NCBI GenBank assembly: GCA_016288655.1
Contig: JAEEKX010000039.1
Location: forward strand, 1-64,000
Source of the DNA: Bacteroidales bacterium
GTDB taxonomy: Bacteria > Bacteroidota > Bacteroidia > Bacteroidales > WCHB1-69
Length of the DNA stretch: 64,000 nucleotides
Direction of reading: 5' to 3'
The notes under the pieces are model-generated. The model was given only the letters and a program-made list of their open reading frames with translations, ran no database searches and was not told the origin of the DNA. Every line of letters begins with the position of its first letter. Position 1 is the stretch's first letter. Below are positions 14,265-39,982 of this stretch, piece by piece. The position numbers were made by a program, and so were the translations under genes.

Positions 14265-14286
14265 ACTGCTTTTGTTTTTGAATGCG

Positions 14287-14294
14287 CAAAAATA
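14287..14294 (-). promoter_or_regulatory. Putative -7 element for gatD-HK operon (TATTTTTG on minus strand)
   Basis: Plus-strand CAAAAATA 14287-14294, just upstream of the start at 14264. Confidence 0.5.
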
Positions 14295-14308
14295 CACTAT
14301 TTTTGGCA

Positions 14309-14347
14309 TAAAAAAAAGAGCTGACTAAAATTTAATCAGCTCTTTTG
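14309..14347 (-). terminator. Intrinsic terminator downstream of the OmpA-family gene
   Basis: AGAGCTGA(14317-14324)/TCAGCTCT(14336-14343) hairpin with an A-run on the plus strand (T-run on minus). Confidence 0.8.
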
Positions 14348-16041: not shown

Positions 16042-19000
16042 TTATTTCACAATGACGAATTTAACCGTTTCAATGGTGTTGGTGCCGGTGGTGATGCGGC
16101 CGAAGTAGGTGCCCTGGGCCTCGAAGCCGGCCACTCTCGTGATCTGCTGCAGGTTGGTCACATGCTGTACCAGAGCGCCCTTGGCGTCGAAGATGTCGAG
16201 GACAGCGCCGTCGAGTTCTTCAGCGGAGAGCGGGAGCTCAACCGTGATCTCAACACCGACGTGTGCCGGGACAGGATAGACACGCAACTGCGGGTTGGTA
16301 GCGACAATCATTTCGCAAGTCCAGTATTCGTTGCCTTGGTCGTCGAGTACCCACAAGCTGTAGATACCGTTCAGACCGCCGATCTCCTGATAGTACTGGT
16401 GGGTGGCACCCGGGATGGGCTCGCCATTTCTGTACCACTGGAAGCTTACGAAGGTGTGACCACCGTTCGTGGCAGGATTGTTGTTGCAGACAACCACATC
16501 GTCCCACTTCTGATCCATGATGTTGATACCATTGGTAGCACCCCAGAGGATGGTGACCGTGACATCGTACATGCAACCGTCGATGACGATACCGAACTGG
16601 TAGGTGCCAGGTTCAGTCGTCGGCATCCAGATGCTGACGGTGTTGTTGTCAAGGTCAATCATACCACCGGTGTAGTCGAAGCCGATGTTGTTGTAATCAA
16701 CGATCTCGTACCAGATGGTGTCGCGGTCATCGTTCACAGTCAGGTTGTTGAACTGGAAGACTGCCAACGCGCCGACTTCATCCGGACAGATGGCCACGCT
16801 GTCGTTCACGATCTCGAACTGCGACACAACGATCGTCACCGTAGCGTCGGTGATGTCACCAACGGAGCAGTAGAGGTCGGAGAGTGCGGTCAACTGATAG
16901 GTCGTGGTCGAATTGGGCGTGAGCTCAATGGAATAGACGTTGCTGTTGGTCACATAGTTGGTGCTGATGCCGTGCGTCACATCGGTCAACGTGAAGTAGA
17001 ACGGAGCAGTACCGTGGAAGACTATCGTCAACGTAGCGTTGTCGTCAGCATCGTTCCAGCAGAGGACGTCAGAACCTTCGCCCAAGTACATCGTTGCAGT
17101 CGGGTGCTCGTGGACCGTCACCGTGGTGGCGTTCGGCGTGTTGCTCGGCATGCAGTTCGTGTTGGCCGGGGCGACATAGGTCGGATAGTAGGTGTAGATA
17201 CCAGCGCTGGTGGTGATATCGTAAGAGAGACCACCCAGACCGCCAGTGACGTTGCTCACGTCGCTCAGGTCGGAAACCGGAGCATAGACCCACTGGATGA
17301 AGGTGCCCGTCTGATGGTTGGCATCCTCAACGCCGCCTGCCACCGTAGCGAACAGGTCAACGCGATCACCCAAGCAGACGTCGGCAGGCGTTACAACCGT
17401 CTGCTCCCATCTGGGCTGGTAGAGGACGTACACATCAACATTGTCGGAGGTAGCCACACAGCCGCTGCCCTGCGGGTAGTTGACGCTTACAGAGTAGGTG
17501 TAAGGACCGCCAACCGCGTCGGTGGTGTCAGTGTGGATGGTAACCATATTGTCAAACTCGGTGATTCTGGCGTTGTTACGTCTCCAGATAATGTTCGGGG
17601 TACCAATACCGCCCTCGATGATGGCGCTCAGCTCAACATAACCGCCTTCGCACACCTGCAGCATGCCGCTGTAGGAGATGCCGACGAACGGCTGCTCGAG
17701 GACTTCGATGACAATGCTCTGGGTCTCGGACTCACAACCGGTGTTGTAGTCGTTGTGACCCTGCGTAGCATACACAGTGTAGGTGTAGGTGCCAGGTACG
17801 TTGATCGTCTCGGTGAAGGTAGCACCGTTGGCGCCAACAATCTCATGACCGTTGACCGCCCAGTGATATACCGTGTTCACGTTGGCGGCATTCGTACCGT
17901 TGCTCATGGAGGCCGTCAGGGTTACTGCACCGCCTTCGCACATCTGGTTGTTCGGGAGCGAGCTTACGATGCTGTCGATGACCGGCTCAGCAGCAACAGT
18001 GTAGGTGAACTGGGCCGTAGCGACACAGCTGTTGTACATGTTGTTGGAGGCCTCGACGGCGTAAGTGTAGGTGCCGACAGCCAAGGTGGCATCCGTGGTG
18101 AGCGTCGCAGCATTCTGCGTGGTCAGCTCAACACCGTTCAAATACCATGTGTAGTTGTAAGTGCTGGTCGGATAGACATTCGCACTCAGAACGACACTAC
18201 CGCCTTCGCAAACCTCATTGAAACCACTGATGGTTGCGGTCGGACCGGCCAGGACAACTGCCTGAACCATAGCGGAGGTGGCGTTACAGCCGCTCATGCC
18301 TGCAGGCGTGACCTCAACGAAGTAGTTGTAGGTGCCGGCGGCCAAGCTGGCGTCAGTGACGTACGTGCTGGCGTTGCTGCCAACCTGTGCGTTGTCTCTG
18401 TACCAAGCGTAGTTGTATGTCGTGCCAGGAACCGTTTCAGCAATGTCAGCCACCAGGGTGATCGTACCGCCTTGACAGACGGACTCAGCACCGAGGACAA
18501 CCACCGTAGGATCGGCAACCACATGGGCCGCAACAATGCCGGAAGTAGTCTGGCAACCGCTCAGCGTGTTGATGACAACAACTTGATATTCGTAGTTACC
18601 CACGTTCAGGGTAGCATCCGTGGTGTAAGTGGACTGGGTCGCACCGTCAATCGGCTGGCCGTTTCTGATCCACTGGTAGGTCACGTTATCGCCGTAGGTC
18701 GTATCAACCGTAGCGGTCATCGTCACCTGGCCACCGAAGCAGACATTGGCAGCGCCGTCGATCGTGGCAACCGGGGTGGCAACCACCGGGATGGTGATGG
18801 TGTTCGACGCACCGTCACAGGCCACGCCGTCCATCGTCACAATCACCTGGTATTCGTAGTTACCAGCCGTCAGGTTGGCGTCGGTTACCAAGGTGGGCTG
18901 GGTAGCACCCGGCAGGATGATACCGTTGCGATACCACTGGTAGTTGTACTGGGCATTCTCGAGACCGCCATCCACGTGGTGGACATACAGCTCGGTGGTG

Positions 19001-22000
19001 CCGCCAACGCAGACGATGCTGTCGTTGTCAACATGGATTGCAATGAACGGGGTCGGGTCGTCAACAACCGTGAAGTTGTAGATGCCCGTGTTACCCTGGA
19101 CAGCGGTGTTCACGTCGCAGCCGTAAGCATTGTCGGCGAACGACATCACAACCGTGTAGGCATAGGAACCAGCAGCCAAGGTGTCGGGGATAACGTAGGT
19201 GTTACCCGTGCCAACCTGCTCGCCGTTGTTGAACCAAGTGTAGGTCGGAGTGCCAAGACCGTTGATCTGGGCGACACCACCTTCGTAGGAAGCGGTCAGC
19301 GTAGCCGTACCACCCACACAGACGGTGGAGGCACCAGCGTTGGTGACATCAACCAAGGTGACGATCGGGTCAGCAACCACGGTCACAGGAACGGCCTCAC
19401 CCATCGTGGAGGTGATACAGCCAGCAGCACCCTCAACGATCACATGGATCATATATGGGGTCTCTCTGGCAGCCAGGCCCTGAGCGATGAAGACGTTGGT
19501 GTCTTGACCCACCGGCTGGTTGTCGATGTACCACTGATAGGTGTAGTTGTCGGCAGGATCAACATTGGCAGTCAGCATCACATTGCCGCCCTCGCAGACC
19601 GTCTGAGAACCAGTGGTGGTGACGGTGATGGTAGCATGCTCGTTGACAGTCACAACAGGAGCGAAGGCCTCGGCAGACGTACAGCCGCTTGCAGCCAGCG
19701 TGACAACCGCGCTGTAGGTGAACGTGGTCTGGTCGTCAACGATGGTCGGGTAGTCGGTGAACGTATTGGAGGTGATACCCGGCAGCAGAACGCCGTTTCT
19801 ATACCAGGTGTAGATAGGATCACCCAGTTCAGCATCGTAGTTGCCCGTGGCGGTCACAACGACCTGTCCACCGTCACAGATAACCTCGTTGCTGACCGTG
19901 ATGTCGGTGATGACCGGATCAGCGTGGACGGTGATCGTATAGACATCGGAGGAGACGCAGTCGGAAGTGGTCTGTCTCACGATGACGGTGTATTCGTAGT
20001 CGCCATCAAGCAAGTTGTCGGGCGTGGTGTAAGTGGCCTGGGTGGCACCAGCGATGTTGACGCCATTCAGTTGCCACTGGTAAGTCAGGAACTCAGTGTT
20101 GTAGTCGCCGAGCGTAGCCGTCAGCGTGGTCTGGCCGCCTTCGCAGATGTCATTCTCGGTAACCGTGATGACAACCTCAGGAGCAGCATTGACCATGACG
20201 TTGAACGGAGCGCTCACGACGCCGCAACCATTCTCGTTCGTGATGACGGCCGTGAAGGTGTAAGGATCAACACTCGGAGCCAGCGTCATATCGAGGACAT
20301 TGGTGTTCTCGCCAGCCAAGGTCTCGTTGAAGAGTCTCCATTCGTAGTTGTATCCGTCAACCATATCGGATGTGTCATTGACATTTGCAGTCAAGTGGAC
20401 CGTGGTGGCAGCCACACCGGAGCCGCAGATGACAGGATCACCGGCGATCACAACCGTGGCGTTACGCAACACAGTCACGTTGATGGTCGAGGAGTCGGTC
20501 ACCACCGACTGGCAGCCGCTCGCCGTCAGGGTAGCGACAACCGTGTAGGTGTAGTTGGTGACATCGTTATCGACCGTCACTTGAGATTCATGCAAGGTGT
20601 TGGTGTTGGCACCCGCGATCACGACTCCGTTCTTGGTCCACGTGTAAGTCACGTCGCCAAGGATCTCGTCGTAAACTGCCGTAGCAGTCAGGGTGAACTC
20701 ACCACCTTCGCAGATGACAGTGTCCTCATCGCTGATTTCAACCGTAACCACCGGATCCGGATGGACATTCACGGTGACGAAGGCGTTGCTGATGCAAGAG
20801 GTCGTCGGTTGTTCAACGATAACTTCAAACACCGTGGTGCTGTCGAGACTGGTGGTGTACTCAGGCGAGGTGGCACCCGGGATGGTGTCGCCGTTGGCAA
20901 CCCACTGATAGGTCAGACCAGCGATGTTGGCGTTGTCGAGGTGTGCGCTGACGGTGACATTACCGCCTTCACAGATGTCGTACTCCGTGCTGAGAGCCGT
21001 CACAACAACGGGCTCGTTGACCAGAACTTCGAACGGAGCGCTCGTCGTGGTGCAACCATTCTCATTGCGGACAATGACCGTGAAGATGTAAGGTTCGTCG
21101 TTGCTCGGGAGGACAGTGTCAATTGTATTTTCAGTACCCACCGTGAGGTTGAACAGTCTCCATTCGTAGGTGAAGCCGTCAACGTCGGCAACCGTGTCGT
21201 TCACATTGGCCGTGAGGATGACGTGGTCAGCACCAACGCCGTTGCCACAGATGCTGTGGTCACCAGCGATTTCAACGGTCGGGTTCGGGAGAACCGTCAC
21301 GATCATCGTGGAGGAGTCGGTGATGACGGACTGGCAACCGTTAGCCGTCAAGGTCACGAGGACCTCGTAAGTGTAGGTCGTCACGTCGCCGTCAACGGTC
21401 ACCGGGCTTTCGGTCAACGTGGCCTCAGTGGCGTTGGTGATTTCAACACCATTTCTGAACCAGGTATAGACCGGAGTACCCAGGATGCTGTCGTAGGTAG
21501 CCGTAGCAGTGATGGTGAATTCACCGCCCTCACAGATCGTAGTGTCTTCGTCGCTGATAGCAACCGTGACAGTAGGATCGGCGTGGACGTTCACCGTGTT
21601 CTCACCGTAGGCAACACAGTTGGAAGTGGGCTGATAGACGCGGACAACATAGGTGTGGGCACCCACAGTGTCGAGCGTGGTGATGTAAGTGGACTGGGTG
21701 GCACCCGCGATAGCGTTGGTGGTGTCGCCTTCGTACCACTGGTAGGTCAAGTTCGGCATGTTGTAGTCGCCGATGTTGGCGTAGAACGTCACTTCACCGT
21801 ATTCGCAGATGTCGTACTCGCTGACCGTCACATTGATGTCGGCGGTATCGTTCACATAAACATAGAACGGAGCGCTTTCGTTCGTGCAGCCATTCGGGTT
21901 GTGGACGATGACGGTGAAGATGTACGGGTTATCGCTGACCGTCAAGTTGTAATCAAGCACCACGCTGTCGGCAGCGCCGTTCACATTGGTGTCGGTAGCG

Positions 22001-25000
22001 TCAATCGTACGGTTGAACAGTCTCCACTCGAAGGTGTAACCGTCAACGTCGGTGACCGTGTCGTTCAAGTTGGCAGTCAGGACAGTCGAGACGGTGTTAG
22101 CACCGGCGCCGCAGATGATCGGGTCGCCTTCGATCTCAACCGTGCTGTTCGGATAGACATGGACGTCGATGGTGGAGGAGTCGGTGATGACGGACTGGCA
22201 GCCGCTGGCCGTCAGAGTCACCAGGACTTCGTAACGGTAGTTGGTGATGTCACCGTCAACCGTCACCGGGCTCTCCGTCAGGACTGCGCCAGTGGCGTCG
22301 GCAACTTCAACGCCGTTTCTGTACCAAGTGTAGGTGGGTTCGCCGAGGACAGTGTCATACACTGCCGTAGCCGTCAGGGTGAACTGGCCACCTTCGCAGA
22401 TGTTGGTGTCAGCATCGCTGATGGCAACCGTCACCGTAGGATCGGCGTGGACATTCACCGTGACCGTAGCATTGGAGATGCAGGAGGTCGTCGGCTGATC
22501 CACGAGAACCTCGAAGGTCGTCGTCGAATCCAAAGTAGTAGTATAGGTGGCCTCAGTAGCACCGTCGATGGTGTCGCCATTGGCAAGCCACTGGTAGGTC
22601 AAACCTTCAATGTTGTAGTTGTTCAGGTGAGCAGAAACCGTGACCGTACCACCGACACAGATGTCTGCCTCAGTCGTCAGAGCAACAACCTCAACAGCTT
22701 CGTGGACATAGACCTCGAAGGGCTCGCTCACGGTCGTGCAGCCATTTTCGTTGGCCACAATGGCAGTGAAAATGTAGGGCTCGTCGTTCGGCATGAGGAA
22801 GGTGTCGAGGACATTGGTGGTCGCCTGATCAATCGTAGTGTTGAACAATCTCCATTCGTAGGTGAACTCGTGGCTGTTGGTAACCGTGTCGTTCACGTTG
22901 GCCACCAGGTGGATGGTGTCAAGACCAGCACCGCTGCCACAGATGTTGTGGTCGCCCTCGATCTCGATGGTCGGGTTCGGGTTGACCGTGACAGTGACGG
23001 TGGAGCTGTCGGTGATGACAGACTGGCAACCGCTCTGCGGCAAGGTGACCATGACGGAGTACTCGTAGGTGGTGACGTCGCCGTCAACCGTCAACGGGCT
23101 TTCAACATAGATGCTGTCATGAGCATCAGCGATTTCAACATGGTTGCGATACCAAGTGAAGGTCGCAGGTCCGAGGATGCTGTCATAGACCGCAGTAGCC
23201 GTCAGGGTGACTTGACCACCGTCGCAGATGACAGTGTCGTTGTCGTTGATAGCCAAGGTCACTACAGGATCCGGATGGACGTAGATGGTGATCTCGTTGT
23301 AACTCAAGCAGGAACTGGTGGTCTGGACGAGGTTGACAGCGAAAGTGGAGGTGCTGTCAAGCGTCGTGGTGTACTCAGCAGAGGTGGCACCCGGGATGGT
23401 GTCGCCATTCACAATCCACTGGTAGGTGAGGTTGTTCACATGGTAGTCGCCCAAGTTGGCGAACAGGGTGACCTCGCCGCCGACACAGATCTCAGTCTCG
23501 CTGGCAGTGATCACAACGCTCGTGGTGTCATTCACATAGACCGGGAACTCTTCGCTGACGGTGGAGCAGCCGTTCTCATTCCATACGTGGACGGTGAAGA
23601 CATAGGGCTCAAGGCTCGGAGCGACCAGAATGTCGAGGACATTGCTGTCGGCGCGACCGATGATGCTGTCTTGAGCTGCGTTGATCGTACGGTTGTAGAG
23701 ACGCCACTCGTAGGTGAAGCCATCGACGAAGGCGCTGGTGTCGTTCACGTTGGCAACCAAGTGGATGGTATCAAGTTCGTTGCCGGCACCGCAGATGACC
23801 GGGTCGCCCTCGATCTGGACCGTAGCGTTCGGGAGAACCGTCACGTTGATGGTCGAACTGTCAGAGACCGTGCTGGCGCAACCAGAAGCAGTCAGGGTGA
23901 CATAGACACCGTAAGTGTAGTTGACGCTGTCGTTATCAACGGTGACCGGATGGTCAACGAAGACGCTGTCAAAGGTGTTGTCGAGGACAACGCCGTTTCT
24001 ACTCCAAGTGAAGGTCGGGACACCGAGGATGCTGTCGTAAACCGCGGAAGCAGTCAGCGTGAACTCGCCACCGGCGCAAATGACCGTGTCAGAGTCGCTG
24101 ATCGCGAGGGTGACGGTCGGATCTTCATGGACGTTGATCGTGATCTGATCAATGTCGAAGCATTCACTCAACGTTCTGAACACCTTGACATAGTAAGTCG
24201 TGGTGGTGTCGATGTTGGCAGCAGTGTAGGTCGGCAGGGTGGCGCCGTAGATGGCGTTGGCCTGGGTGACGCTGTTCTCGTACCACTGGAAAGTAAGGTC
24301 TCCGATGTGATCATCGTCAGAAACCATGTGGTAATCCTCAAGGTTGGCGGTCATGGTAACCGTACCACCGACGCAAATCTCGGTTTCGGTAGCAGTGACA
24401 GAGACCACCGGAGCTTCGTGGACATAGACGTCGAACGGTTCGCTCATCGTGCGGCAGCCATTGCCTCTGGTGACCTCAACCTGCATGTGGTAAGCATTCG
24501 GTCTCGGGTAGAAGTACTCGCTGAAGTATCTGCTGTCACCATAGCCATAGGCCATGTTGTCGCGGATCTGGCCGGATTCGTACCAAGTGAAGTGCAGGTT
24601 ACCAACCGTGATGGAACTGGTATCGACATTAGCCATGACGAAGACAGGATCGGTCTGGCAGACGTACGGGTCGCCAGTGATCTCAACTCTCGGGTTCATG
24701 TAAACATTCAGTCTGTCAGCGGAGGTGGGCTCGGAAGTACAGCCAGACGGAATCTGGTGTGCAACGGCGGTATAGACATAGTAGCTGTCGTCGTTGTCAA
24801 CGGCAATCTCATTCAGGTTGTCGGTGAAGGTCTCACCGGTGACGCCTTCGATGAGTTCGCCATTTCTGTACCAAGTGTAGTAGTACGGGTAGTCGGCCGT
24901 GTCAACACCACCGTGAGTGTGGGCGGTGATGGTCGGTTGACCACCGTAGCACATTTCATAGAAGTCAAGGGTTACACTGTCAACAACCGGAATCTCGTGG

Positions 25001-31000: not shown

Positions 31001-34000
31001 ATGGAGTCGCCATCGACCAACCACTGATAGGTGATGTTGGTAGCATTCGGATTGGCCAAGTAAGCGGTGGCAGTGATCTGACCGCCGTCGCAGATGGTGG
31101 AGTCAACGTCATCAACGAGGACATTGACAACGGGCTTGGCAAGCACCTGAACCATGAACGGATCACTGGTCACACGGCAGCCGTTGCTGGAGATGACCTC
31201 CAACTGGTAGGTGTGGGGATCCATCTGCAGATCGACATGGTCGCTGAGGAAGTATCCATCAAGCATCGGAACTTCATCGCCCATAGCAGGAATCACTTCG
31301 ACACCATCAACATACCAGTGGTGTTCCATCATAGGATCGAAGGGGATGTCCGTAACGATTCTGGCATTGACTTGGACATTATTGACACCCACGGGAGCTT
31401 CACAAACGATGGAGTGACCATAGAGGAGGACTTCCGGATTGGCGCTGACACGGACCGTTGCGGTGGCAGGTTCGGAGGCACAAGCCGGAGCGGCAGCGAT
31501 AGCAACAACGGAGTAGATGTGAGCCGTCTGGTCAACATCGACTACCAGCGGGGAAACCGTGTAGGTGCTGTCGGTGACACCCTGGAGGAGGACACCGTTC
31601 TCGTACCAAGCGAAGGTGATGTCACCCAACTCGGCATCGGCGGTGGCATGGGCAATCAAAGTAACCTGACCTCCTTCACAGATGGTGGAGTCGGTAACGC
31701 TGCCCGTGCCGATGTTCAGCACAACAACAGGAATGTCATGTTTCGTAATGGTGATATCACCCGTGCCAACACAACCGGAGTTGGCTTGAGTCACTTCCGC
31801 GGTGTAAGTATGGGAGGCATCAATAGTAGCAACGTACGTGGCCTCATTGGCACCTGCGATCTCCGTGCCGTCAACCTTCCAAACGTAGGTGAGGTTCGGG
31901 GTGTTGTAGTTGCCGAGGTGAGCGGTCAGTGTGACAACGCCATTCTCACAAACATCGGTGTCGGAAGCGCTTACCACAACTTCCGGATTGGCATCAACAT
32001 AGACGTAGTAGCCATCGCTGACAGCCACGCAACCGGAGATATTGTTGGTGACGCGGACACTGAAAATGTAAGGATAATCGCGCTCGGTCATGGCTTGATC
32101 GAAGTCGGCGTTGTTGGCACCGGCAACGTCAACACCATCGACCATCCACTGATATTCATAAGTAGCGTTCTGGACCGTGTCGTGCAAGGTGGCCAACAAC
32201 TGGACGTTGTTAGTGTTGCAGAGGATCGGGTCGCCGCTGATCGTAACGCTGTGGTTCGGGAAGACCGTAATCATCGTGTCAATCGTAGTGGATTGGCAAC
32301 CAGGAATCTCGGTGAAGCAGAGGACAGCGTAGTTGTAAGTGGTGATGTCATTATCGACTGCGATCGGGGAGTCAGACAAGACATTGGTGTTGGCACCTTC
32401 GATGACAACGCCATTCTTCATCCAAGTGTAGGTAGCAGGAAGTTCAGTAGCCGTAAGGGTAACTTCACCGCCAACACAGATGGTGTCTTGAGGAACAAGT
32501 GTGAGCGTGAGTTCCGGAAGGTCGATAACCTTGATTTGCTTCGTGCCTTCGGCCTCACATTCGGAAGTGGTCTGCATAACGCGGACAAGGTAATCAGTGG
32601 TGGCCTCGGGGTGAACCGTAAGCTCACGAGAAGTAGCGCCGACGATTTCCGTTTCAACAGAACCCTCGACGGTGTACCATCTGTAAACCAAGTTGTCGGT
32701 GTTGTAGTTGCCCAAGTTGGCAGTCAGTGTAACCGCACCATTCGTGCAGACACTGTCGAAATCAGCAGTGACTTCAACGAGGATGGTGTCGTTTACATAG
32801 ACATAGTAGGGCTCGCTCAAACTTCTACAACCATTGTCGTTAGCAACTTCAACGGTGAAAATGTAGGGCTCATCCTGTGTGGCCATGTGTGCAATCTCCA
32901 AGTGGTCGGTGGTAGCACCCGTAGTGTCGCCACCATCAATGAGGTTATCATTGAACATTCTCCATTGATAAGTCAGAGCGCCAGTAGCAATGAGCGTGTC
33001 ATTGATATGGGCATCGAGGATGACGGTGGAATCCTTACACAGGATAGCGTCACCACTGATCATAACGGTCGGGTTCTGGCTGACGGTGAGAGTGTCGGAA
33101 GCAGCTACCAAGGAGGTGCAACCTGCGCTGGCCTGACGGACCACGGCAGTATAGACGAAACTGTTTGCGTCAACATCGCTCAGGACAGGAGCATCAACAA
33201 AGGTAGAGTCGGTGACGCCTTCAATCACTTCACCGTTTCTGTACCAAGTGTAAATATAAGCTTCACCAGTCACACCATCAGAAGCATGACCCGTGACCGT
33301 GACTTGAGTGCCTTCACAAATATCGTTGGAGCTGAGTTCGATGCTGCTGATTACAGGGATCGTGCTCACTTCGACATTAACGGCATTCTCTTTCAGACAA
33401 CGAGTGCTGTTAGCCAGAACTTGGACCTTCACCGGAATGGTACCGGCAGTGGTCAACGTAGTGGTCAACGTGGAGGAGACAGCACCGTCAACAACAGTAC
33501 CATCAACAGACCAAACATACGTCAAATCGTTGGCGTCATAGAATGCAGTGTCATGTGTATTGTTGAAACCAATATTGGCAGTGGCAGTGATTTCACCACC
33601 CTCACAAATCGTGGCATCGTCAACCGTGACATAGACATCGGGCAGGTTGAAGATAGTAACAGGATAAGGATCGCTGGTAACCGTACAACCGTGACCGGCG
33701 TTGATGCGGATGGAATAGTTGTAAGGCTCAGTCTGAACATCATTGATACGATTCTCTTTGTAGTAGATAGTACCGGGGTTGATCATATTACCGAGCATCG
33801 GGTTGCTGGAGACATCGTTGTTGTCGAGCAACCAAGCCCAGGTGATATGGGCCATGTCGAACGGAACTGCATTATGGTTCTGGATATGAGCCCACAGGAT
33901 GACGGTATCACCGTAGCAGAGGGAAGCATCGCCAGAGAGTTGAACGGTGGGCAGACTGAAGACCGTCAGCGATTGAGCAGAAGTCTTCATCTCGGAAACG

Positions 34001-37000
34001 CAAGAGGAACTGGCCTGTCTAACCGTAGCAGAATAAACATAGACGGAAGAATCAGCGTTGGTGAGCGGAGCAGCATCCATGAAGGTGCTGTCGGTCACGC
34101 CCTCTATCAACTGACCGTTTCTGTACCAAGTGTAGATATAGGGCTCACCAGCGATACCCGGCTGAGCGGGATCGATGGTAGCAGTGATCTGAATTTGATA
34201 AGCATCGCAGACTGCGGTATCGCTCAACGTGATGTTAGCGATGGCAGGAGCTTGTTCTGTATGGATGGTCTGACTACCCGAAGCATGGCAATCCGAAGTG
34301 GTCTGGATCACCTCAACGTAATAGGTCTCAGTAGCAGAGACATTGGTTGTCAAGGTAGCGCTGGTGGCACCGGCGATAGCGTTGGCCGGGGCAACCGAAC
34401 CCGTGTACCACTGATAGATGAGAGCATCATCGTTATAGTCGCCGAGGTTGGCGGTCAAGGTGACGGTACCATTTTCACAGATGGTGGTATCGTCTGCGGT
34501 GACAACAACCTGGATGCTGTCGTTCACATAGACATAGTAAATATCAGAGATGCTTCTGCATCCACTGTTATCATATGCCATGACGGTGAACTGATAAGGA
34601 TCGGTGCTGTTGGCGGCAAGGTAGGTCAGATGATTAGTAGTGGCGGAAGCATCCGTCAAGTTGGTGTTGGCCAACATCCATTGGTAATGAACGTTGGTGG
34701 TCGTCGTATCGTAACCATTGATATTGGCTGTCAAATCAATATTGTTACCATCGCAGATGATCGGGTCACCGCTAATAACGATCGTCGGATTCGGATAGGC
34801 GTAGACGATGGTGTCTTTCGTAGCCATGCAACCAGGAATGTTGGAGGAGAAGACCACACTATAGACATAAGCCGTGGAGTCACCGTCGATAGCGATCGGG
34901 GAATCCATCAGTAACTGTTGGGTAGCACCTTCGATGAGAACGCCGTTCTTGTACCAAGCAAAGGTACCTTCCTGGGTGGCGGAGGCCACCAAGGTAACTT
35001 CACCGCCGGAGCAGACCATGGTCATGTTGACATCAAGGGTCAGATCGGGAGCGGCGAGGACCTTCACGGAGTCTTTACCGGAAGCAGCACACTCGGAAGT
35101 GGTCTGCAGAAGGTCAACTCTGTAGTGGTTCACACCAACATTTTGAGGAACGACGGTAATGACGCGCTCGGTAGCGCCCGGGATTTCAACATCTTCGGCA
35201 AACCATCTGTAGATGAGGTTTTCGGAGTTATAGTCGCCCAGGTGAGCGGTAAGGGTGATTTCTGCGTTCTCGCAGATGGAGTCATAGTCGGAAGTGACAA
35301 CCACGTTCAGGGTGTCGTTCACATAGACATAGTAAGGATCGCTTTCAACAGCGCAACCAGCATTCTCGTTGGTAACGACGACCGTGTAGATGTAAGGTTC
35401 GTTGGAAGCGGGACGGTTGGTTTCAGACAAAGTATCGTTGGTCGCACCAGTGATGTCGGCATTAGCCAGTCTCCACTGGAAGTGGAGTTCGCCCATCGTC
35501 TCATCATAGTCGTTAACATGAGCGACGAGACCGATGCTGTCGTTGTGGCAGATCATAGCGTCACCGCTAATGGCAACGGTCGGATGAGCCTTAACGCTTA
35601 CGGTGTCATAAACGATGACTGAACCGCAAGCGGAACTGGGCTGGCTGATGGCAACACCATAAACGTAGGTGGTACCATAAATGCTCTGTGCTTCCGGTGT
35701 ATCGTAGATCACGCTGTCGGTTTCGTTCTCCATCACAGCACCGTTCTTATACCAAGTGTAGGTGATCGGCTCAGCAGCGATGAAGGACGTCGGAGTGGCA
35801 GCCACCATGATTTGTTGACCTGCGCAGACCGTGTCATTGTTGGCGTCGATGTTGACGGTCAACTGCTCCTTGGGGGTGACCTTGATGGTATCGGTAGCAG
35901 TGCAGCCAGAGAGGTTCTGGAGCGCATTCACGACGACCACATATTCCGAAGCATCCTGGAAGAGGTAAGTCATAGTGTTGGAGGCAGCACCATCGACAAC
36001 GACATTGTTGACTTTCCATTCATAGGAGAGACCCGCAATGTTATTGTTGGTGACGTTGGCCGTAAAGGTCACATCGCCACCAGCGCAGATGGTCGTGTCA
36101 TTAGCAGTCATCTGAATCAGAGGTGCACTGTAAACAGTGACAGGATAGTCGGCGCTGAGCGTCGTGCAGCCATTGCCGCGGGAGATCTCCACGCTATAGA
36201 TGTAGGTGGAAGAAGTTTCACCCGTACGGACTGCATCGTGGTTGGCAACATAGACGCTGTTATCTGTGCCATTGGTGATTGTGCCTAAGGTAGAGGCGTC
36301 AATACCATCGCGATACCAGGTCGCCGTAACGTTGGTGCTCGGGATAGCCATACCGTTGACGGTAGCTGTCAAATTGACATTGAACTCGCCATCGCAGACA
36401 GTCTGGTCACCGCTGATCACGACATTGAGGTTCGGGAAGACATAAACGGTGTCATATTGGAAGGCCTCGCAACCGGTGCTGTCTTGGACGAACTGGACTG
36501 CATAAGTGTACATGGTTCTGTCACCATCGATGGCAACAGGACTGTCAGTGAAATAGTTGTTGGTGTTGGTAGCGACAAGGTTGTTGTTCTTGTACCAGTT
36601 GTAAGTGCCGGCGGGAGCCACGTCGCTGGGCTGCAGTTCGAGGGTGAACTGACCGCCTTCGCAGATGGAGTCTGTACCGGCAGGAGTGACGGCGAGAGTC
36701 ATAGTGGGAGCCGTAACGACTTCAATGGCAGTGTCTCCTTGAGCGGTGCAGAAGGTGCTATTCTGAAGAACTCTCACACGATAGATCGTATTTGCAGTCG
36801 GATACTGAACCAGCGTAGAAGTGTATTCATTCGGGATTTCAGTTTCGGTGGTACCATTAACCGTGTACCATCTGAAAGTCACTTGATCGAAGTTGTCCTG
36901 AACAGCAGCGTTCAAAACCACTTCCTTACCGGCGCAAACTTTATTGGAGCTGGCGTTGACACCCACAACAATGGTGTCATTGACATAGACCGGGTAAGGA

Positions 37001-39816
37001 TCGCTGACAACCACACAGCCATCAGGGCCGGTGACAGCGACAGTATAGATGTACGGATATTCACGATAATCTTTAGCTTTGCTGAAGGTGTATCCCGTCT
37101 GGGTGGTGTTGACGTTGTCCTCACGCCATACCAAGTTGTAAGTACCAGCGATGGTATCATTCAAAGTAGCGGTCAAGTTAACCGTATTTTGATCAGGGTT
37201 ACCGCAAAGGAGCTGGTCGCCGCTGATGCTGACGCTCGGGATATGGTTGACGCGGATGGTATCGTTCGGAGTGGAGTGGGCTACACAACCACTGGTGGGT
37301 TGTTCGACGGTGACACTATATATATATAAGGTAGTGTCGTTGCCGGTGGCCACTTCATCGTAGTAACTGGCAGTGGTAGTAGTGCCCATGACGAGACCGT
37401 TTCTATACCAAGTGTAGATGGCAGTACCGGCAGCGTCGTCAAGGGTGGCGGTGGCTGTCAGTTCGACTTGCGAGCCGGAGCAGACAAAGCCAGCGGGATT
37501 CGTGGTGAGATCGACGGTGGGCATCGTGCGGGCCTTCACCTCAAAGGTGGTGTCAGCTTTGCAGGAACTGGTGCCCGGATAGTGTTGGGTCATGTGGACG
37601 GTATAGACACCAGCTTCAGTGGCAACGTAGGTGGCACCCGTGCCAACTTCACTCCCGCCGAACTCCCAAGTATAGGTGACGCCAGGGATAGTCTCGTCGG
37701 AGGTCGTAGCCATCAGGGTGACAGAACCACCTTCGCAGAGAGCCGAGTCGCTCGCGTTGATGCTGACGATCGGCATGGGATCAACTTGGGTGAAGAAGAT
37801 GTCGGAAGCCATAGCCCGACAACCGATGGCGGAAGCCATACCCATCACAGCATAAATCTGATGAGCATCCTGCTGAGCGGCTAAGTCGATGGAAAGAATC
37901 GGGAGGTTTTCACCGGTTTGAATATTCTCATCGACGAACCAAGTCCAACCATTGGAGGCAGTCACGAAGATTTCCGGAGCACCCACAGCGTGATAATTTG
38001 CCGTGGTACCTTCGCAGATGCGAGAGGGACCGGTAATCACGATCTCTGTCTGCGGGAAGACGGTGACGACCGGAGAGGCGGCTGTCTTGCTGCCGCAGTT
38101 GTCGGTCGTAGTCAACACCAACGTATAGGTGTATTCCGTCTCCGCGTTGGAGTTGTTCTCCACGTTGTCCACGAAGGACGCGGTGGTTGCCGGAAGCAAC
38201 TGGCCGTTTCTATACCATGTATATATATAGTTGGTACCGGTCAAGCCCGTGGCCTCGACATGGATGGGAGCACCGTTACAAGCCAATACATTTGTGGCAC
38301 CACCTTCAATCTTCACAACCGGGGTCTCCATTTCAGGAAGAACCTCGATGGTGGCCGTGGCCGTGGCAGAGCATTGTGCATTGCCCGTCACAGTGACCGT
38401 CACACCCAGAGGGGCGGTGAGGTTGCCCGAGACTGCTGTGGCACCCGTACCGGTGACACCCGTTGACCAAGTATAGGTCGGGTAATCGGAAACGTAACCA
38501 TTGACCGTTACGGTAGCCGTACCCGGAGCGTCGTAGCAGGCAGGTGTCGTGGTGAGCGTCGCGGTCGGCATGGGATAGACCGAAACCAACAGCGGCTCAC
38601 TGACGAGGTGACAGTTAAGGGCTGCGTCGTTGAGGTTGAGAACAATCTCGTAAGGTCTATCTGAAGGAGCCAGACCACTAATGGTTGTTGCGGAACCATT
38701 ATTGCCAGCAGCGCCATCCACAGACCATGTCAGAGCACATTCGGGTACAAAAACATACAAACCTTCGTAATTGGAGGTAAGAGAGATGTTAGCAGTACTA
38801 TTCGTACAGAAAACCGCCTGACCGGGCGATCCGATGACAGGAGTGATGGGAGTCTCCACGGAGAAATCGGCATTGGTGGCAGAGCAACCGCCAGCATCTA
38901 CAACGGTGTAAGAGACAGTTCCCGCATCATACGGATTGTCAATCCAGGTTGAGTTGGAGGAGCCGAGGAGGGCACCATTGCGATAGAAGGTGTACGGCGC
39001 GGCACCGCCAGTGGCCGTCAACAAAAGTTGGCCACCAGGACAGATGATGGGGTCTGCAGTGGGGTCACAAGGCGGCAAAGCAAATTCCACGTTGAGAGTG
39101 GGAGGGGTGGCGCCGGTGAAATCAACGGTATAGACGGCGGAGGTGTCGTTGCAGAGGTCGGAGCCCTGATAGACGGCGATGGCCTTATAGTCACCTGCCG
39201 TAGTGGCAACATAGGTGTTGGAGGTACCCGTGTTGGCGACGACGTTGCTGCCGAGCATCCAGACCCAGTGGTCAACCGTGGCCGGGCTGGTCGTGGTGGC
39301 GGTCAGGGTCTGCTGGGTGCAGGCGTGTTCCGGAGTGCCGGTAATCGTCACGGTGCCTCTGTCCACACTTCTCAGCATGAAGACGGCGGAGGTGTCGGCG
39401 GGGCCGACACAGGCGCTGCCCTCCATCCGTTGTACAACTACTTTATAATAGCGGACAGGGGTGACGTCACTCATATTGACATGCAGTTCCTGTATATTCT
39501 GTGCACCGGCGACCCCGCTGAACCCACCACCGTGGGATGTGCTGGACAGCCAGGTGTAAGAATATGTCGTTCCGGTTGTGAAGGGATCAGTGTCCACAAA
39601 CACAGCATGCAACGTGACCATTGCATTTGAGCATGCGAACTCCGGACCCTCAATGCGGACAACAAGGTTCTGAGTGGCATTGACACGATTTACTGCATAT
39701 ACCCCGTCTGCGCGGTCAGTATAATTATTCGCAAGCATTCCTGTGGTGCCCGGAGACGAGTAACCATGATAAGCATACATGAACACCATCAGGAAAAAAA
39801 TCGTAAACTTTTTCAT
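16042..39816 (-). CDS. Giant (7924 aa) secreted multi-Ig-like-module protein with T9SS type-A sorting domain; putative adhesin or surface-layer protein
   Basis: Single uninterrupted ORF; signal peptide MKKFTIFFLMVFMYAYHGYS. About 80 modules with paired Cys, ICEGGxVTLTA...YTWYRNGxxIxGAT...SGC. C-terminus LRVYPVPAHVGVEITVELP...LDIFDAKGALVQHV...GTYFGRITTGTNTIETVKFVIVK is a type-A CTD. Confidence 0.95.
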   Translation of the reverse strand: MKKFTIFFLMVFMYAYHGYSSPGTTGMLANNYTDRADGVYAVNRVNATQNLVVRIEGPEFACSNAMVTLHAVFVDTDPFTTGTTYSYTWLSSTSHGGGFSGVAGAQNIQELHVNMSDVTPVRYYKVVVQRMEGSACVGPADTSAVFMLRSVDRGTVTITGTPEHACTQQTLTATTTSPATVDHWVWMLGSNVVANTGTSNTYVATTAGDYKAIAVYQGSDLCNDTSAVYTVDFTGATPPTLNVEFALPPCDPTADPIICPGGQLLLTATGGAAPYTFYRNGALLGSSNSTWIDNPYDAGTVSYTVVDAGGCSATNADFSVETPITPVIGSPGQAVFCTNSTANISLTSNYEGLYVFVPECALTWSVDGAAGNNGSATTISGLAPSDRPYEIVLNLNDAALNCHLVSEPLLVSVYPMPTATLTTTPACYDAPGTATVTVNGYVSDYPTYTWSTGVTGTGATAVSGNLTAPLGVTVTVTGNAQCSATATATIEVLPEMETPVVKIEGGATNVLACNGAPIHVEATGLTGTNYIYTWYRNGQLLPATTASFVDNVENNSNAETEYTYTLVLTTTDNCGSKTAASPVVTVFPQTEIVITGPSRICEGTTANYHAVGAPEIFVTASNGWTWFVDENIQTGENLPILSIDLAAQQDAHQIYAVMGMASAIGCRAMASDIFFTQVDPMPIVSINASDSALCEGGSVTLMATTSDETIPGVTYTWEFGGSEVGTGATYVATEAGVYTVHMTQHYPGTSSCKADTTFEVKARTMPTVDLTTNPAGFVCSGSQVELTATATLDDAAGTAIYTWYRNGLVMGTTTTASYYDEVATGNDTTLYIYSVTVEQPTSGCVAHSTPNDTIRVNHIPSVSISGDQLLCGNPDQNTVNLTATLNDTIAGTYNLVWREDNVNTTQTGYTFSKAKDYREYPYIYTVAVTGPDGCVVVSDPYPVYVNDTIVVGVNASSNKVCAGKEVVLNAAVQDNFDQVTFRWYTVNGTTETEIPNEYTSTLVQYPTANTIYRVRVLQNSTFCTAQGDTAIEVVTAPTMTLAVTPAGTDSICEGGQFTLELQPSDVAPAGTYNWYKNNNLVATNTNNYFTDSPVAIDGDRTMYTYAVQFVQDSTGCEAFQYDTVYVFPNLNVVISGDQTVCDGEFNVNLTATVNGMAIPSTNVTATWYRDGIDASTLGTITNGTDNSVYVANHDAVRTGETSSTYIYSVEISRGNGCTTLSADYPVTVYSAPLIQMTANDTTICAGGDVTFTANVTNNNIAGLSYEWKVNNVVVDGAASNTMTYLFQDASEYVVVVNALQNLSGCTATDTIKVTPKEQLTVNIDANNDTVCAGQQIMVAATPTSFIAAEPITYTWYKNGAVMENETDSVIYDTPEAQSIYGTTYVYGVAISQPSSACGSVIVYDTVSVKAHPTVAISGDAMICHNDSIGLVAHVNDYDETMGELHFQWRLANADITGATNDTLSETNRPASNEPYIYTVVVTNENAGCAVESDPYYVYVNDTLNVVVTSDYDSICENAEITLTAHLGDYNSENLIYRWFAEDVEIPGATERVITVVPQNVGVNHYRVDLLQTTSECAASGKDSVKVLAAPDLTLDVNMTMVCSGGEVTLVASATQEGTFAWYKNGVLIEGATQQLLMDSPIAIDGDSTAYVYSVVFSSNIPGCMATKDTIVYAYPNPTIVISGDPIICDGNNIDLTANINGYDTTTTNVHYQWMLANTNLTDASATTNHLTYLAANSTDPYQFTVMAYDNSGCRSISDIYYVYVNDSIQVVVTADDTTICENGTVTLTANLGDYNDDALIYQWYTGSVAPANAIAGATSATLTTNVSATETYYVEVIQTTSDCHASGSQTIHTEQAPAIANITLSDTAVCDAYQIQITATIDPAQPGIAGEPYIYTWYRNGQLIEGVTDSTFMDAAPLTNADSSVYVYSATVRQASSSCVSEMKTSAQSLTVFSLPTVQLSGDASLCYGDTVILWAHIQNHNAVPFDMAHITWAWLLDNNDVSSNPMLGNMINPGTIYYKENRINDVQTEPYNYSIRINAGHGCTVTSDPYPVTIFNLPDVYVTVDDATICEGGEITATANIGFNNTHDTAFYDANDLTYVWSVDGTVVDGAVSSTLTTTLTTAGTIPVKVQVLANSTRCLKENAVNVEVSTIPVISSIELSSNDICEGTQVTVTGHASDGVTGEAYIYTWYRNGEVIEGVTDSTFVDAPVLSDVDANSFVYTAVVRQASAGCTSLVAASDTLTVSQNPTVMISGDAILCKDSTVILDAHINDTLIATGALTYQWRMFNDNLIDGGDTTGATTDHLEIAHMATQDEPYIFTVEVANDNGCRSLSEPYYVYVNDTILVEVTADFDSVCTNGAVTLTANLGNYNTDNLVYRWYTVEGSVETEIVGATSRELTVHPEATTDYLVRVMQTTSECEAEGTKQIKVIDLPELTLTLVPQDTICVGGEVTLTATELPATYTWMKNGVVIEGANTNVLSDSPIAVDNDITTYNYAVLCFTEIPGCQSTTIDTMITVFPNHSVTISGDPILCNTNNVQLLATLHDTVQNATYEYQWMVDGVDVAGANNADFDQAMTERDYPYIFSVRVTNNISGCVAVSDGYYVYVDANPEVVVSASDTDVCENGVVTLTAHLGNYNTPNLTYVWKVDGTEIAGANEATYVATIDASHTYTAEVTQANSGCVGTGDITITKHDIPVVVLNIGTGSVTDSTICEGGQVTLIAHATADAELGDITFAWYENGVLLQGVTDSTYTVSPLVVDVDQTAHIYSVVAIAAAPACASEPATATVRVSANPEVLLYGHSIVCEAPVGVNNVQVNARIVTDIPFDPMMEHHWYVDGVEVIPAMGDEVPMLDGYFLSDHVDLQMDPHTYQLEVISSNGCRVTSDPFMVQVLAKPVVNVLVDDVDSTICDGGQITATAYLANPNATNITYQWLVDGDSIIGATTPILTTTLTGVATHEITVSVNQLVSDPDRYACRNTDVVEVEVVAAPEITEVEASADTICEGYQVNIHAVASNGVAEDGYTYTWYRNGAEMTGLVDSVIYDTPVATDGDTAMYIYTVVAHQISSGCNSLPMSDTVYVFPNPTVWISGDQIICDHGDIELHANLNDTALNLTFNYEWRLSNTTIGNNSRDLTIHDTTFRDEPYIFTVTVSNDRGCAVTSEPYYVYVNDSVRVEVTHEPDSVCPGAEVTFTANLIDYNADNLIYRWSEIRGTSVGDTTEIHGATSREVVVRPTTEIYRYQVEILQTTSMCKAIGFDSVKVLSPATLAWEEVSDTALCFGGEVSLTVTPPTNLEGYYTWYRNGQQITGANLNHLNDSPIAVDGDSTAYEYAVVFNPVVDGCRSEMIDTIVYVYPSPVIEITGDAIVCTRTDSNIYLIAHVSDTSVASRDFTYTWFESNREITATENLASEDTLLIHGVEFRDEPYIFTVVMSNNRGCTVTSAPYNVYVNDTVLVEVTSSVDSVCAGGEVTLEANLGDYNADNMIYRWYAKEEGAADSTEIWGGTSRIITVNPIKTTYYSVLVRQTTSECFAIGYDTIKVIAPTAIAINLGVDEGRDTLCNGGEVTLVATGEHGEALVGGSFIWTRNGVVIPGAEGPSITESPLAIDNDSTAYIYQVMYALDVPGCRADTADTTVIVYMNPTVQISGDPIICNVEGTENNLVLVANVNDTVHHDLTYEWRLANRTIEGATEDTLRAHLDASDNPYLFTVQVSNHRGCTTLSEEFPVYVNDTASIQVVVTSDYDTVCVGGEVTLTAHLADYNSGSLTFQWYKRDTTATGADTLIAIDYGTEPILHYTMTDSLWNYFELHITQTNSGCEAWGIDSVYVWPRVPYVISHVHALNIANNSHFICDGGEVDVQVELSDLNGNRIDSTLFTYNWYRNGFEHPFLSGPWFRESPLTVDGDTTHYQYSAVIVLDIPGCEYSQMNFSDTVTVVRNPIVYISGNPYVCQYMPINLFAWVNGDVAPLTTTYNWYLDGQLHNTYQSYRFYHWDSLAVSTGFAYNFMVEAVDANGCSGFSDPFQVVVVEAPVVHITATEDSVCVGGEVTFTANLDNYNLEYLQYQWYQDVILETNRIPGATNPTYTDTLNETHTYYVEVFSSLVANDALCTATDGYTVTVVPDPVVDSVTISVDDICEGGQVTVTAHTSEGIPSDAYTYTWFRNGILMEGITDSTFTESPMTVDGDITTYVYSAIASQVSSGCTSAQTFATDTLTVYPNPTVVIAGDPIICEDSVIMLSANVTNDYFGAELTYTWLLYNDTIRAPRTGVGADTIIDPRPAQDHPYIYTAVVNNPHGCLTESAPFYVYVNDTIIVEVTSSEDTICEGGSITLTANIGDYNADALTYRWYKNDTTAANEIWGATQSQLTIVPDSTMNYFVRVFQTTSDCETFGSYRIIVNPVPYIDTIELSINEICDGGQVTITAHPMGGVSTDIAPYVFTWYRNNEVIEGVTDSTFTESPLTVDGNITDYVYSATVHQAASGCESERKYADSILRVNPNPQVVISSDPLICEDDHIILHANVTDEYPTANLNFTWKLDNDTVADGLGMDTFDTLVEPRDHSYDFTVVVSNEHGCVTESAVYSVTVNPRPVVELTAFEDTICETGSTILRANVDNGFLTNLMYRWINVESGDTIYGGMQHELTVYPDSTTRYAVEVYQVGSECMSYDTITIKVNERPVIDSVILSDYEICDGGQVTVTAYTHGGVDTANVPYIYTWYRNGELVEGETGATFVVSPLTVDNNITDYVFSAVVRQDISGCVSDSTAAAYLRVNPNPYVVISSDPLICQYDSVHLYANVTDEYPTANLNFTWKLDNDTIADGLGMTQFDTLLEPRDHSYNFTVVVANDLGCVSMSDVYRLTVNPMPAVEITAYEEDICEGGSTVLTANIDNYNLTNLMYRWHKDSLNNPIDGDMQRIVTMTPDTTTMYFVEIYQVGSECVNVDSIEIRVHEIPVVDSVTLDFYEMCYGGQPTITAHTHGGVDTADYPYYYTWYRNGELIEGVTGETFTDNLNEIAVDNDDSYYVYTAVAHQIPSGCTSEPTSADRLNVYMNPRVEITGDPYVCQTDPVFVMANVDTSSITVGNLHFTWYESGQIRDNMAYGYGDSRYFSEYFYPRPNAYHMQVEVTRGNGCRTMSEPFDVYVHEAPVVSVTATETEICVGGTVTMTANLEDYHMVSDDDHIGDLTFQWYENSVTQANAIYGATLPTYTAANIDTTTTYYVKVFRTLSECFDIDQITINVHEDPTVTLAISDSDTVICAGGEFTLTASAVYDSILGVPTFTWSRNGVVLDNTFDSVFVDHPVTVDNDSVNYTYGVYVTLTASGCASTVSDSSTINVTVLPNATVQIEGDPVICGAGNELDTIHLVANVNDTSAFVDGFTYEWRLYNRTINAAQDSIIGRADSNVLDILVAPSLEPYVFTVHVWNENGCSTVSEEFPVYVNDTTSVVITASETEICVGGEVTLFANLGDYHVNNLTYQWIVNGDTIPGATSAEYTTTLDSTSTFAVNLVQTTSSCLSYNEITIYVHPDPVVTLAINDNDTVICDGGQVTLTATAVYDSILGPATFTWYRNHVEIADAHDSIYVESPLTVDGDVTTYEYSVMVTLPQSGCQSVITDSSTVTVTVNPNPTIEIEGDHNICGSGAGLDTIHLVANVNDTVTNSHEFTYEWRLFNTTIDQATTNVLDTFLMPNDEPYIFTAIVANENGCTTVSEPFEVYVHEAVEVVALTTEADICVGGTVTVSAHLNNYNIEGLTYQWLANGDTIDGATEATYTTTLDSTTTFEVLVDQPTTSCISNATVTVNVHADPTVTVAISDADTNICEGGQFTLTATAVYDTVLGEPTYTWYRNGVEVADATGAVLTESPVTVDGDITNYRYEVLVTLTASGCQSVITDSSTIDVHVYPNSTVEIEGDPIICGAGANTVSTVLTANLNDTVTDVDGYTFEWRLFNRTIDATDTNVNGAADSVVLDYNLTVSDNPYIFTVIVHNPNGCTNESAPFYVYVNDTADINVTVSEYDICEYGEVTFYANIGDYNMPNLTYQWYEGDTTNAIAGATQSTYITTLDTVGAHTYVVRVYQPTSNCVAYGENTVNVHADPTVTVAISDEDTTICEGGEFTITATATYDSILGTPVYTWFRNGVEITNATEATLTESPVTVDGDVTTYTYEVLVTLTANGCQSVITDSSTMIVTVLPNPTVEIAGDHSICGNGVGADHVILTANVNDTVADVDGFTYEWRLFNLTVGTENTIDTVLPSNDEPYIFTVIVRNENGCTTTSAPFEVLVNEPVVVTALSTEYDICEGGNVTVSAHLDNANIAGLTYQWVANGDTIPGATSPEYTTSLDSTTVFEVIVEQPTTSCISNAFVTVNVHPDPVVTVEISDEDTVICEGGEFTLTATAVYDEILGDVTYTWTKNGVVIAGANTNTLHESQVTVDNDVTNYTYTVVATLTASGCQSVVTDSSTINVTVLRNATVVIAGDPVICGSGVAATTVHLTANVNDTSDMVDGYNYEWRLFNETLAGENTNVLDMTLAPSVDPYTFTAVITNENGCGVVSAPFNVMVNAAPEVVITVTENDICEGGQTTLTATLGDYNTEFLTYQWQLNGVNIAGATQATYTTPDNLLDGDYEYTVIVRQTTSDCVSSDVYTITVHADPVITDITVSNEVICDGGQVVVTATGNYDAELGDPIYTWYRNGVLLPGITSNTFTDYPTIVDDQTTFTYSAVVTLAASGCTSAEAFAPVVTVNEHATITVTTTGSQTVCEGGNVMLTANVDPADNYTYQWYIDNQPVGQDTNVFIAQGLAARETPYMIHVIVEGAAGCITSTMGEAVPVTVVADPIVTLVDVTNAGASTVCVGGTATLTASYEGGVAQINGLGTPTYTWFNNGEQVGTGNTYVIPDTLAAGSYAYTVVMSFADNAYGCDVNTAVQGNTGIYNFTVVDDPTPFIAIHVDNDSIVCVGGTTELYVHHVDGGLENAQYNYQWYRNGIILPGATQPTLVTDANLTAGNYEYQVIVTMDGVACDGASNTITIPVVATPVATIDGAANVCFGGQVTMTATVDTTYGDNVTYQWIRNGQPIDGATQSTYTTDATLNVGNYEYQVVVINTLSGCQTTSGIVAAHVVADPTVVVLGAESVCQGGTITLVADIAETVPGTTYNYAWYRDNAQVGSNASTYVTDASLAAGTYNYFVEVTPAGMSGCNATSAMVQAVVLAGPTATISGFNEVCEGGSVVLSANVYPTSTYNYTWYLNGVELTTQNAATLTTDATLAVGTYTYAVEASNNMYNSCVATAQFTYTVAAEPVIDSIVSSLPNNQMCEGGAVTLTASMSNGTNAANVNTVYHWAVNGHEIVGANGATFTETINVPGTYTYTVYATQGHNDYNTGCESETQSIVIEVLEQPFVGISYSGMLQVCEGGYVELSAIIEGGIGTPNIIWRRNNARITEFDNMVTIHTDTTDAVGGPYTYSVSVNYPQGSGCVATSDNVDVYVLYQPRWEQTVVTPADVCLGDRVDLFATVAGGVEDANHQTGTFIQWVYAPVSDLSDVSNVTGGLGGLSYDITTSAGIYTYYPTYVAPANTNCMPSNTPNATTVTVHEHPTATMYLGEGSDVLCWNDADDNATLTIVFHGTAPFYFTLTDVTHGISTNYVTNSNVYSIELTPNSTTTYQLTALSDLYCSVGDITDATVTIVVSQFEIVNDSVAICPDEVGALAVFQFNNLTVNDDRDTIWYEIVDYNNIGFDYTGGMIDLDNNTVSIWMPTTEPGTYQFGIVIDGCMYDVTVTILWGATNGINIMDQKWDDVVVCNNNPATNGGHTFVSFQWYRNGEPIPGATHQYYQEIGGLNGIYSLWVLDDQGNEYWTCEMIVATNPQLRVYPVPAHVGVEITVELPLSAEELDGAVLDIFDAKGALVQHVTNLQQITRVAGFEAQGTYFGRITTGTNTIETVKFVIVK
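19950..37300 (-). repeat. Higher-order tandem repeat, about 840-bp superunit (three Ig-like modules A-B-C), about 21 copies, within the giant ORF
   Basis: The B-module signature (ISGDPIIC / PYIFTV...VYVNDT) recurs near 20440, 21270, 22130, 22960, 23800, 24670, 25500, 26310, 27155, 28000, 28885, 29750, 30555, 31420, 32230, 33060, 33920, 34760, 35570, 36420 and 37220. Confidence 0.88.
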
Positions 39817-39974: not shown

Positions 39975-39982
39975 CAAAAATA
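39975..39982 (-). promoter_or_regulatory. Putative -7 element for the giant ORF (TATTTTTG on minus)
   Basis: Plus CAAAAATA preceded by TTG, i.e. minus TATTTTTGCAAG; about 160 nt upstream of the start codon. Confidence 0.45.

Follow-up and report, generated by a model that had tools for sequence, protein, structure and literature searches.

A two-gene cassette in gut Bacteroidales encodes a giant Ig-repeat T9SS cargo and a barrel-OmpA partner that may hold it at the cell surface

Introduction

Characterised cargos of the type IX secretion system (T9SS) that carry a type A C-terminal sorting domain (CTD) use PorV, lose the CTD to PorU and end up either released or attached to A-LPS (PMC12618676, PMC9143113). 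Type B cargos need a cognate PorP/SprF shuttle that is encoded downstream (PMC12618676). Both PorV and PorP are 14-stranded barrels of the FadL type (PMC9143113). For PG1035, a type B cargo, a complex linked to the wall through PorP and the OmpA-domain protein PorE has been proposed (PMC12618676, PMC9143113). The T9SS-exported SprB is about 200 nm long, and PorG is an 8-stranded outer membrane protein whose C-tail contains cysteines and which is disulfide-linked to GldK/PorK (PMC12635249). Outside the phylum, AtaA of Acinetobacter forms a fibre of about 260 nm that is secured by TpgA, an auxiliary OmpA-domain protein (PMC13082670). As summarised in PMC13319060, which cites Lien 2024, GhpA of Aureispira sp. 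CCB-QB1 (PDB 9flp and others) has 5,898 residues and spans a heptameric grappling-hook filament on the cell surface. More than 41,000 proteins above 5,000 residues are found in UniProt (PMC11573180).

Since giant proteins as such are already known, size alone is not the novelty of the locus described here. What is new is a conserved cassette of a cargo gene and a barrel gene, and the literature on giant T9SS proteins, in the part that we covered, contained no description of it. The cassette lies in the window, a 64,000-nucleotide stretch of a Bacteroidales bacterium (assembly GCA_016288655.1, contig JAEEKX010000039.1, positions 1 to 64,000). We favor the reading, with a probability of roughly 0.6, that its two genes make a static surface fibre, with the T9SS exporting it and the barrel-OmpA partner retaining it at the base.

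Results

The giant gene and its product

The features of the giant gene in the window are as follows.

39975..39982, minus strand: candidate promoter, Bacteroidota-type -7 element TATTTTTG (consensus match only)
16042..39816, minus strand: giant coding sequence, T9SS cargo with about 83 Ig-like modules (7,924 aa, 854 kDa)
39757..39816, minus strand: signal-peptide-like N-terminus, first ~20 codons (judged by eye)
37246..39672, minus strand: modules 1-8, the fast-evolving, length-variable N-terminal end, presumed distal (identity, insertions)
19636..37245, minus strand: modules 9-71, 21 A-B-C triplets, with the period starting from about module 8 (lag identity)
17416..19635, minus strand: modules 72-79, Ig modules that do not follow the triplet period (Cys pairing, lag identity)
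16282..17415, minus strand: modules 80-83, the divergent base (last module common phylum-wide)
16051..16281, minus strand: T9SS type A CTD (TIGR04183), residues 7846-7922 (profile match)

The ORF starts with ATG and runs from 39816 to 16042 on the minus strand, with 7,924 codons and no internal stops. The initial annotation, which gave no strand, had described an uninterrupted 23.8-kb ORF at exactly these positions, and its estimate of 0.8-0.9 MDa agrees with the computed mass of 854 kDa. The protein has a pI of 4.05, 0.6% Lys and 171 Cys. Its leader, MKKFTIFFLMVFMYAYHG, looks like a signal peptide by eye, as first proposed, and is conserved in the orthologues, most of which read MKKF[TM]I[FY]FLM. 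The candidate promoter element was found by pattern match 159-166 nt 5' of the ATG, in a leader with 22% GC, and fits the Bacteroidota -7 consensus.

It had also been claimed that the protein is far larger than ordinary T9SS cargo. This holds in general, but the same genome has ORFs of 7,689 and 6,685 aa, and relatives of the giant reach 9,397 aa. The 7,689-aa ORF (contig C31:2988-26057) has a type B-like C-terminus by eye. The next large ORF after it is on the opposite strand, and no obvious PorP/SprF-like gene follows. Six further giant ORFs of 6,685, 4,116, 3,537, 3,177, 3,075 and at least 2,504 aa lie on contigs C1, C15, C36, C29, C11 and C50, respectively, and most of them, including the 6,685-aa one, have type A CTDs. 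With the two largest included, the giant ORFs take up about 5% of the 2.26-Mb genome, which has 82 Por_Secre_tail matches in all.

A 3,136-aa ORF lies antisense over the giant gene (window 16162-25572, plus strand), and the opposite strand is nearly open as a whole. Only 12 antisense stops were observed, compared to 47 expected from the codon bias of the neighbours and 219 expected from uniform codons. Nine of the 12 gather in the first ~1,650 codons, the fast-evolving end of the gene. The plus strand is nearly open because the giant gene avoids the codons TTA, CTA and TCA. The antisense ORF was therefore rejected as a gene and is read as a by-product of codon choice in the giant gene.

The Ig-like module array

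Modules were defined by Cys pairing with the rule C-x(50-80)-C. By this rule the giant protein has 83 modules, close to the 80 or so Cys-paired Ig-like modules in the initial annotation. The Cys spacing is non-random, since 98% of the Cys-Cys gaps fall into two spacing classes (25-36 and 52-78), compared to 28% (maximum 40%) with random placement. Pfam matches were found to Ig_7 (E 4.5e-47) and Ig_3 (E 6.8e-41), and Ig_2 was also far over its cut-off. The Ig_7 (CHU_C-associated) scores of 158.7 and 91.7 bits exceed the gathering score of 27.3 and place the modules in this family. An AlphaFold2 model of one triplet, a check that had been proposed at the outset along with the profile search, gave a mean pLDDT of 91.5.

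Modules (about 8-71) that lie 3, 6, 9, 12 or 15 positions apart share 37-44% identity, compared to 27-29% at all other lags. This stretch is a strict repeat of an A-B-C supermodule, which measures about 277 aa (265-296) and is present in 21 copies. Across 32 aligned triplets, six Cys and three Trp never vary. The last module, with the pattern KWDDVVVxNN...YQWYKNG..IPGATxQYY, is the part that is shared across the phylum. This architecture supports the long surface fibre or adhesin that was first suggested. No recognisable ligand-binding domain was found in the giant protein, so the word adhesin is taken from the architecture.

Authenticity and variation of the array

Tandem Repeats Finder detected no nucleotide tandem repeat in the giant gene, which leaves short reads little opportunity to collapse the array. 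Two congeners, G001 and G012, each assembled independently, were compared with the giant, and 74 consecutive modules (9-82) align 1:1 and in order with both at a mean identity of 77%. Misassembly or a collapsed repeat was rejected on these two grounds, and the initial worry that the array could be misassembled or the frame broken was not borne out by the congener assemblies. Recent amplification of the array was also rejected because identity is much higher between orthologous modules (77%) than between most modules of the same protein (27-44%, averages by lag). The blocks of orthologous modules have a dN/dS of 0.04-0.34, with mostly synonymous substitutions, which indicates purifying selection on the modules.

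Variation in length and sequence is found mainly at the N-terminal, presumably membrane-distal, end. There are extra modules near module 9, eight in G001 and 15 in G012, and modules 1-8 have an identity of 49-52%, compared to 59-89% in the other blocks. Two other orthologues, G010 and G004, differ by the loss or gain of one whole triplet. Between G001 and G012, dS falls along the giant gene from 1.3-1.6 to 0.07-0.2, suggesting a recombination mosaic with exchange of N-terminal alleles. This exchange stays a lead because the reference genes disagree on the background dS (MmdA 0.13, partner 0.34, DXS saturated).

The sorting domain

The proposed type A sorting domain passed the TIGR04183 cut-off of 23 bits, though weakly, with 26.9 bits when half of the protein was searched and 33.8 bits with the last 270 aa. 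A search with Pfam PF18962 missed the domain. The type B model (TIGR04131) did not match the C-terminus, where TIGR04183 was the only match, and we regard the type A match as real but weak. Among the orthologues, eight of the nine tested pass the TIGR04183 cut-off, the exception (L088) scoring 18.6 bits. The SprA translocon is present in the host genome (SprA_N, E 8e-165).

The partner gene

The partner gene lies immediately downstream of the giant gene and has the following features.

14364..15956, minus strand: partner gene, 530 aa, 85 bp 3' of the giant (signal-like N-terminus, outer membrane barrel, linker, OmpA domain)
14916..15833, minus strand: partner barrel, residues 42-347 (structure model, Cys pattern)
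14415..14657, minus strand: OmpA peptidoglycan-binding domain, PF00691, residues 434-514 (profile, fold match)

The structure model of the partner, which is of moderate confidence (pLDDT 70.8), has eight long beta strands, and the barrel belongs to the OMP_b-brl_2/OmpA-like class. With a PF00691 match of 52.6 bits, the protein has both parts of an OmpA-type wall anchor, an outer membrane barrel and an OmpA domain. Among the solved structures that match it are E. coli OmpA, Ail, Pal, Capnocytophaga OmpA and the C-domain of PorE, and its OmpA domain resembles solved peptidoglycan-binding domains, PorE included. The TpgA model matches the partner in the OmpA-domain part only (37.7 bits vs 350), which does not make it a TpgA-type anchor. 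PorP/SprF and PorE were considered as identities for the partner and rejected on family models and strand number, and no PorP/SprF family match was found for it in profile searches.

Cys40 sits just before strand 1 of the barrel and Cys349 just after strand 8. Both are present in 32 of 33 homologues and both are absent in the other one. This co-occurrence suggests an internal bond, and a Cys40-Cys349 disulfide would close both periplasmic ends of the barrel.

After the partner, a GatD-type asparaginase gene and a short histidine-kinase gene occupy window 12169-14309 (minus strand). A kinase-like ORF also comes after the partner in G010, and a regulatory link between the kinase genes and the cassette is possible. 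Elsewhere in the window, a PorV/PorQ-family gene (50302-51483, minus strand) lies directly 3' of a 1,557-aa ORF (51515-56188, minus strand) that had no Pfam or NCBIfam match. These two genes are perhaps another cargo/shuttle-type pair.

Linkage of cargo and partner across genomes

Scanning genomes with the partner alignment gave 42 loci. By record title nearly all are from a Bacteroidales or Bacteroidetes bacterium, the exceptions being one Erysipelotrichaceae and one Prevotella. Most come from the rumen or other ruminant stomachs, others from horse faeces and, to judge from isolate names, insect guts. In all 37 loci with a visible upstream side, an Ig-repeat giant with the conserved tail lies directly 5' of the partner, at a spacing of about 80-110 bp in the relatives (allowing for the start of the partner match). 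Complete giant orthologues have 4,181-9,397 aa and the others run off contig ends.

The pairing extends beyond this family. Distant relatives of the base module were detected in 13 of 296 other genomes of the phylum, and a barrel relative lies immediately 3' of the base-module gene in nine of the 12 loci fetched. Two of these nine barrels have an OmpA domain and seven do not. Since some distant partners lack this domain, wall binding is not universal. In one genome (G343), the barrel is on the upstream side of the base-module gene. The partner profile was also used to search 12 of the base-carrying genomes and the window's own for barrel-region matches below 1e-5. All eight matches outside the window's genome, in seven genomes, adjoin a base-module gene. 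As a control, 203 ORFs from the window and from the neighbourhoods of the other giants in the same genome were searched, and the profile matched the partner only. The cargos tested beside barrels in the phylum have type A CTDs. Base and barrel stay together with arms of different kinds: G052 has an InlB/Flg_new repeat array as its arm, G053 a GH38 mannosidase with cadherin-like domains, G027 Ig_7 and G031 PKD.

The MAG Fux382_bin47 (G083:C131) has a 14,106-aa ORF with a sorting-domain-like tail, and 85 bp after it lies a 537-aa ORF that resembles the barrel-OmpA protein. This is possibly the same cassette at 42 kb.

Discussion

Three features go beyond the initial annotation: the A-B-C triplet, the variability of the N-terminal end and, directly 3' of the giant gene, the cognate barrel-OmpA gene. 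The last of these gives the best indication of how the fibre is retained. As a static surface fibre, the giant would enter the periplasm by its signal peptide (Sec export) and would exit through the SprA/T9SS translocon, directed by the type A CTD. Outside the cell, it would fold into about 83 disulfide-closed Ig-like beads. When extended, it would measure roughly 300-370 nm end to end, as computed from 83 modules of 3.6-4.5 nm each, the textbook size of an Ig module rather than a length from the model. The C-terminal base module and the CTD would remain at the outer membrane, where the co-encoded 8-stranded barrel would bind the base, and the OmpA domain of the partner would grip peptidoglycan and so keep a long lever in place under shear. 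Other cells, plant particles or host surfaces would be contacted by the N-terminal modules at the far end, which diversify rapidly. We infer this polarity, with the N-terminus outermost, from CTD biology. The fibre built by the giant would most likely rank among the longest known from a single protein.

A broader reading, which we hold tentatively and at somewhat less than even odds, is that base module and barrel form a third kind of T9SS cargo/anchor pair across the Bacteroidota, possibly distinct from PorV and from PorP/SprF. A dedicated 8-stranded OMP_b-brl_2 barrel would receive and hold type A cargos with a base module, independently of A-LPS and with the OmpA domain optional. The arms would be exchangeable (Ig fibre, InlB/PKD repeats, enzyme) and reach 9,400 residues in one gut family.

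Should the giant follow the PorV route, with release or A-LPS linkage afterwards, no anchoring by the partner would be required. In one alternative, the partner serves above all as a shuttle dedicated to this cargo, taking the place of PorV or PorP/SprF and collecting the giant from the translocon, with anchoring secondary or through A-LPS. The gene order is like that of type B cargos and their shuttles, and some distant relatives have partners that consist of a barrel alone, which makes the barrel the common element and the OmpA domain optional. We consider this alternative unlikely, though it deserves attention, since the partner is predicted to be 8-stranded and OMP_b-brl_2/OmpA-like, not 14-stranded and FadL-type as PorV and PorP are (PMC9143113). 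An OmpA domain also has no role in shuttling, and type A CTDs are reported to use PorV. Another candidate is a grappling hook like that of GhpA, in which the giant would oligomerise into a hooked filament that catches other cells. GhpA was the best solved match to the triplet in the PDB, both by fold (TMq 0.68, E 2.5e-12) and by sequence profile (E 2.6e-141), and it comes from the same phylum, with the same secretion route and size class. However, the identity is only 18-21%, across generic Ig modules, and phmmer with the C-terminal 1,197 aa of the giant gave no GhpA match (E<=0.01), leaving orthology unsupported at the C-terminus. VipB of the type VI system, which we take to be part of ixotrophic killing, was not found in the window's genome by a search that left out divergent Bacteroidota type VI genes. 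Ixotrophy by analogy was rejected on this result, which also helps to make the hook a decidedly doubtful reading.

Length and T9SS export resemble those of SprB (PMC12635249), but a gliding adhesin that is moved along the cell surface is highly improbable for this locus. The giant's CTD is type A and not type B, and the partner is not SprF-like and has a wall-binding domain that would hold the giant still. The Cys-X-Cys motif of the SprF C-tail (PMC12635249) does not describe the partner either, in which Cys349 occurs together with Cys40. There is hardly any room for an assembly artefact or a non-functional repeat expansion. With 50 contigs at 93% completeness, the source genome is probably a MAG, which speaks for such an artefact, but the missing DNA repeat, the 1:1 collinearity of modules across independent assemblies, the signs of purifying selection and the strong codon bias of the giant gene all speak against it.

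The static, wall-anchored fibre is the reading that we carry forward. For type A cargos, PorV is described as the common shuttle, followed by release or attachment to A-LPS. The phylum-wide pair of base-module and barrel genes, frequently including a wall-binding domain, predicts another route by which exported proteins are fixed to the cell, and cultured relatives with small arms offer a way to test it. The giant puts an extreme load on the T9SS pore. It also suggests that uncultured bacteria of the rumen and insect gut bear fibres longer than SprB or AtaA, and the variable N-terminal end could decide what these bacteria stick to.

Compared to the known systems, GhpA is also a Bacteroidota protein with thousands of residues of Ig-like modules. 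The arms share a domain class only, given the low identity and the unmatched C-terminal region, so GhpA appears to be a possible functional parallel and not an orthologue. We know of no partner gene for GhpA. AtaA-TpgA is a mechanical analogue outside the phylum, and the OmpA domain of the partner matches the TpgA model, but AtaA is a trimeric autotransporter (type V) with its own membrane domain, and its fibre and secretion route are unrelated. PorG is, like the partner, a small 8-stranded outer membrane barrel with a Cys right after the last strand, whereas Cys349 of the partner co-occurs with Cys40 at the other barrel end and is followed by the OmpA domain. SprB-SprF and PG1035-PorP-PorE share with our cassette a T9SS surface protein with a cognate outer membrane barrel, often encoded downstream. 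They differ from it in that the CTD here is type A and the barrel is an 8-stranded OMP_b-brl_2 barrel, while theirs are 14-stranded and FadL-type. By analogy, PG1035-PorP-PorE is the nearest functional counterpart within the phylum, with the difference that barrel and OmpA domain are here fused in one protein.
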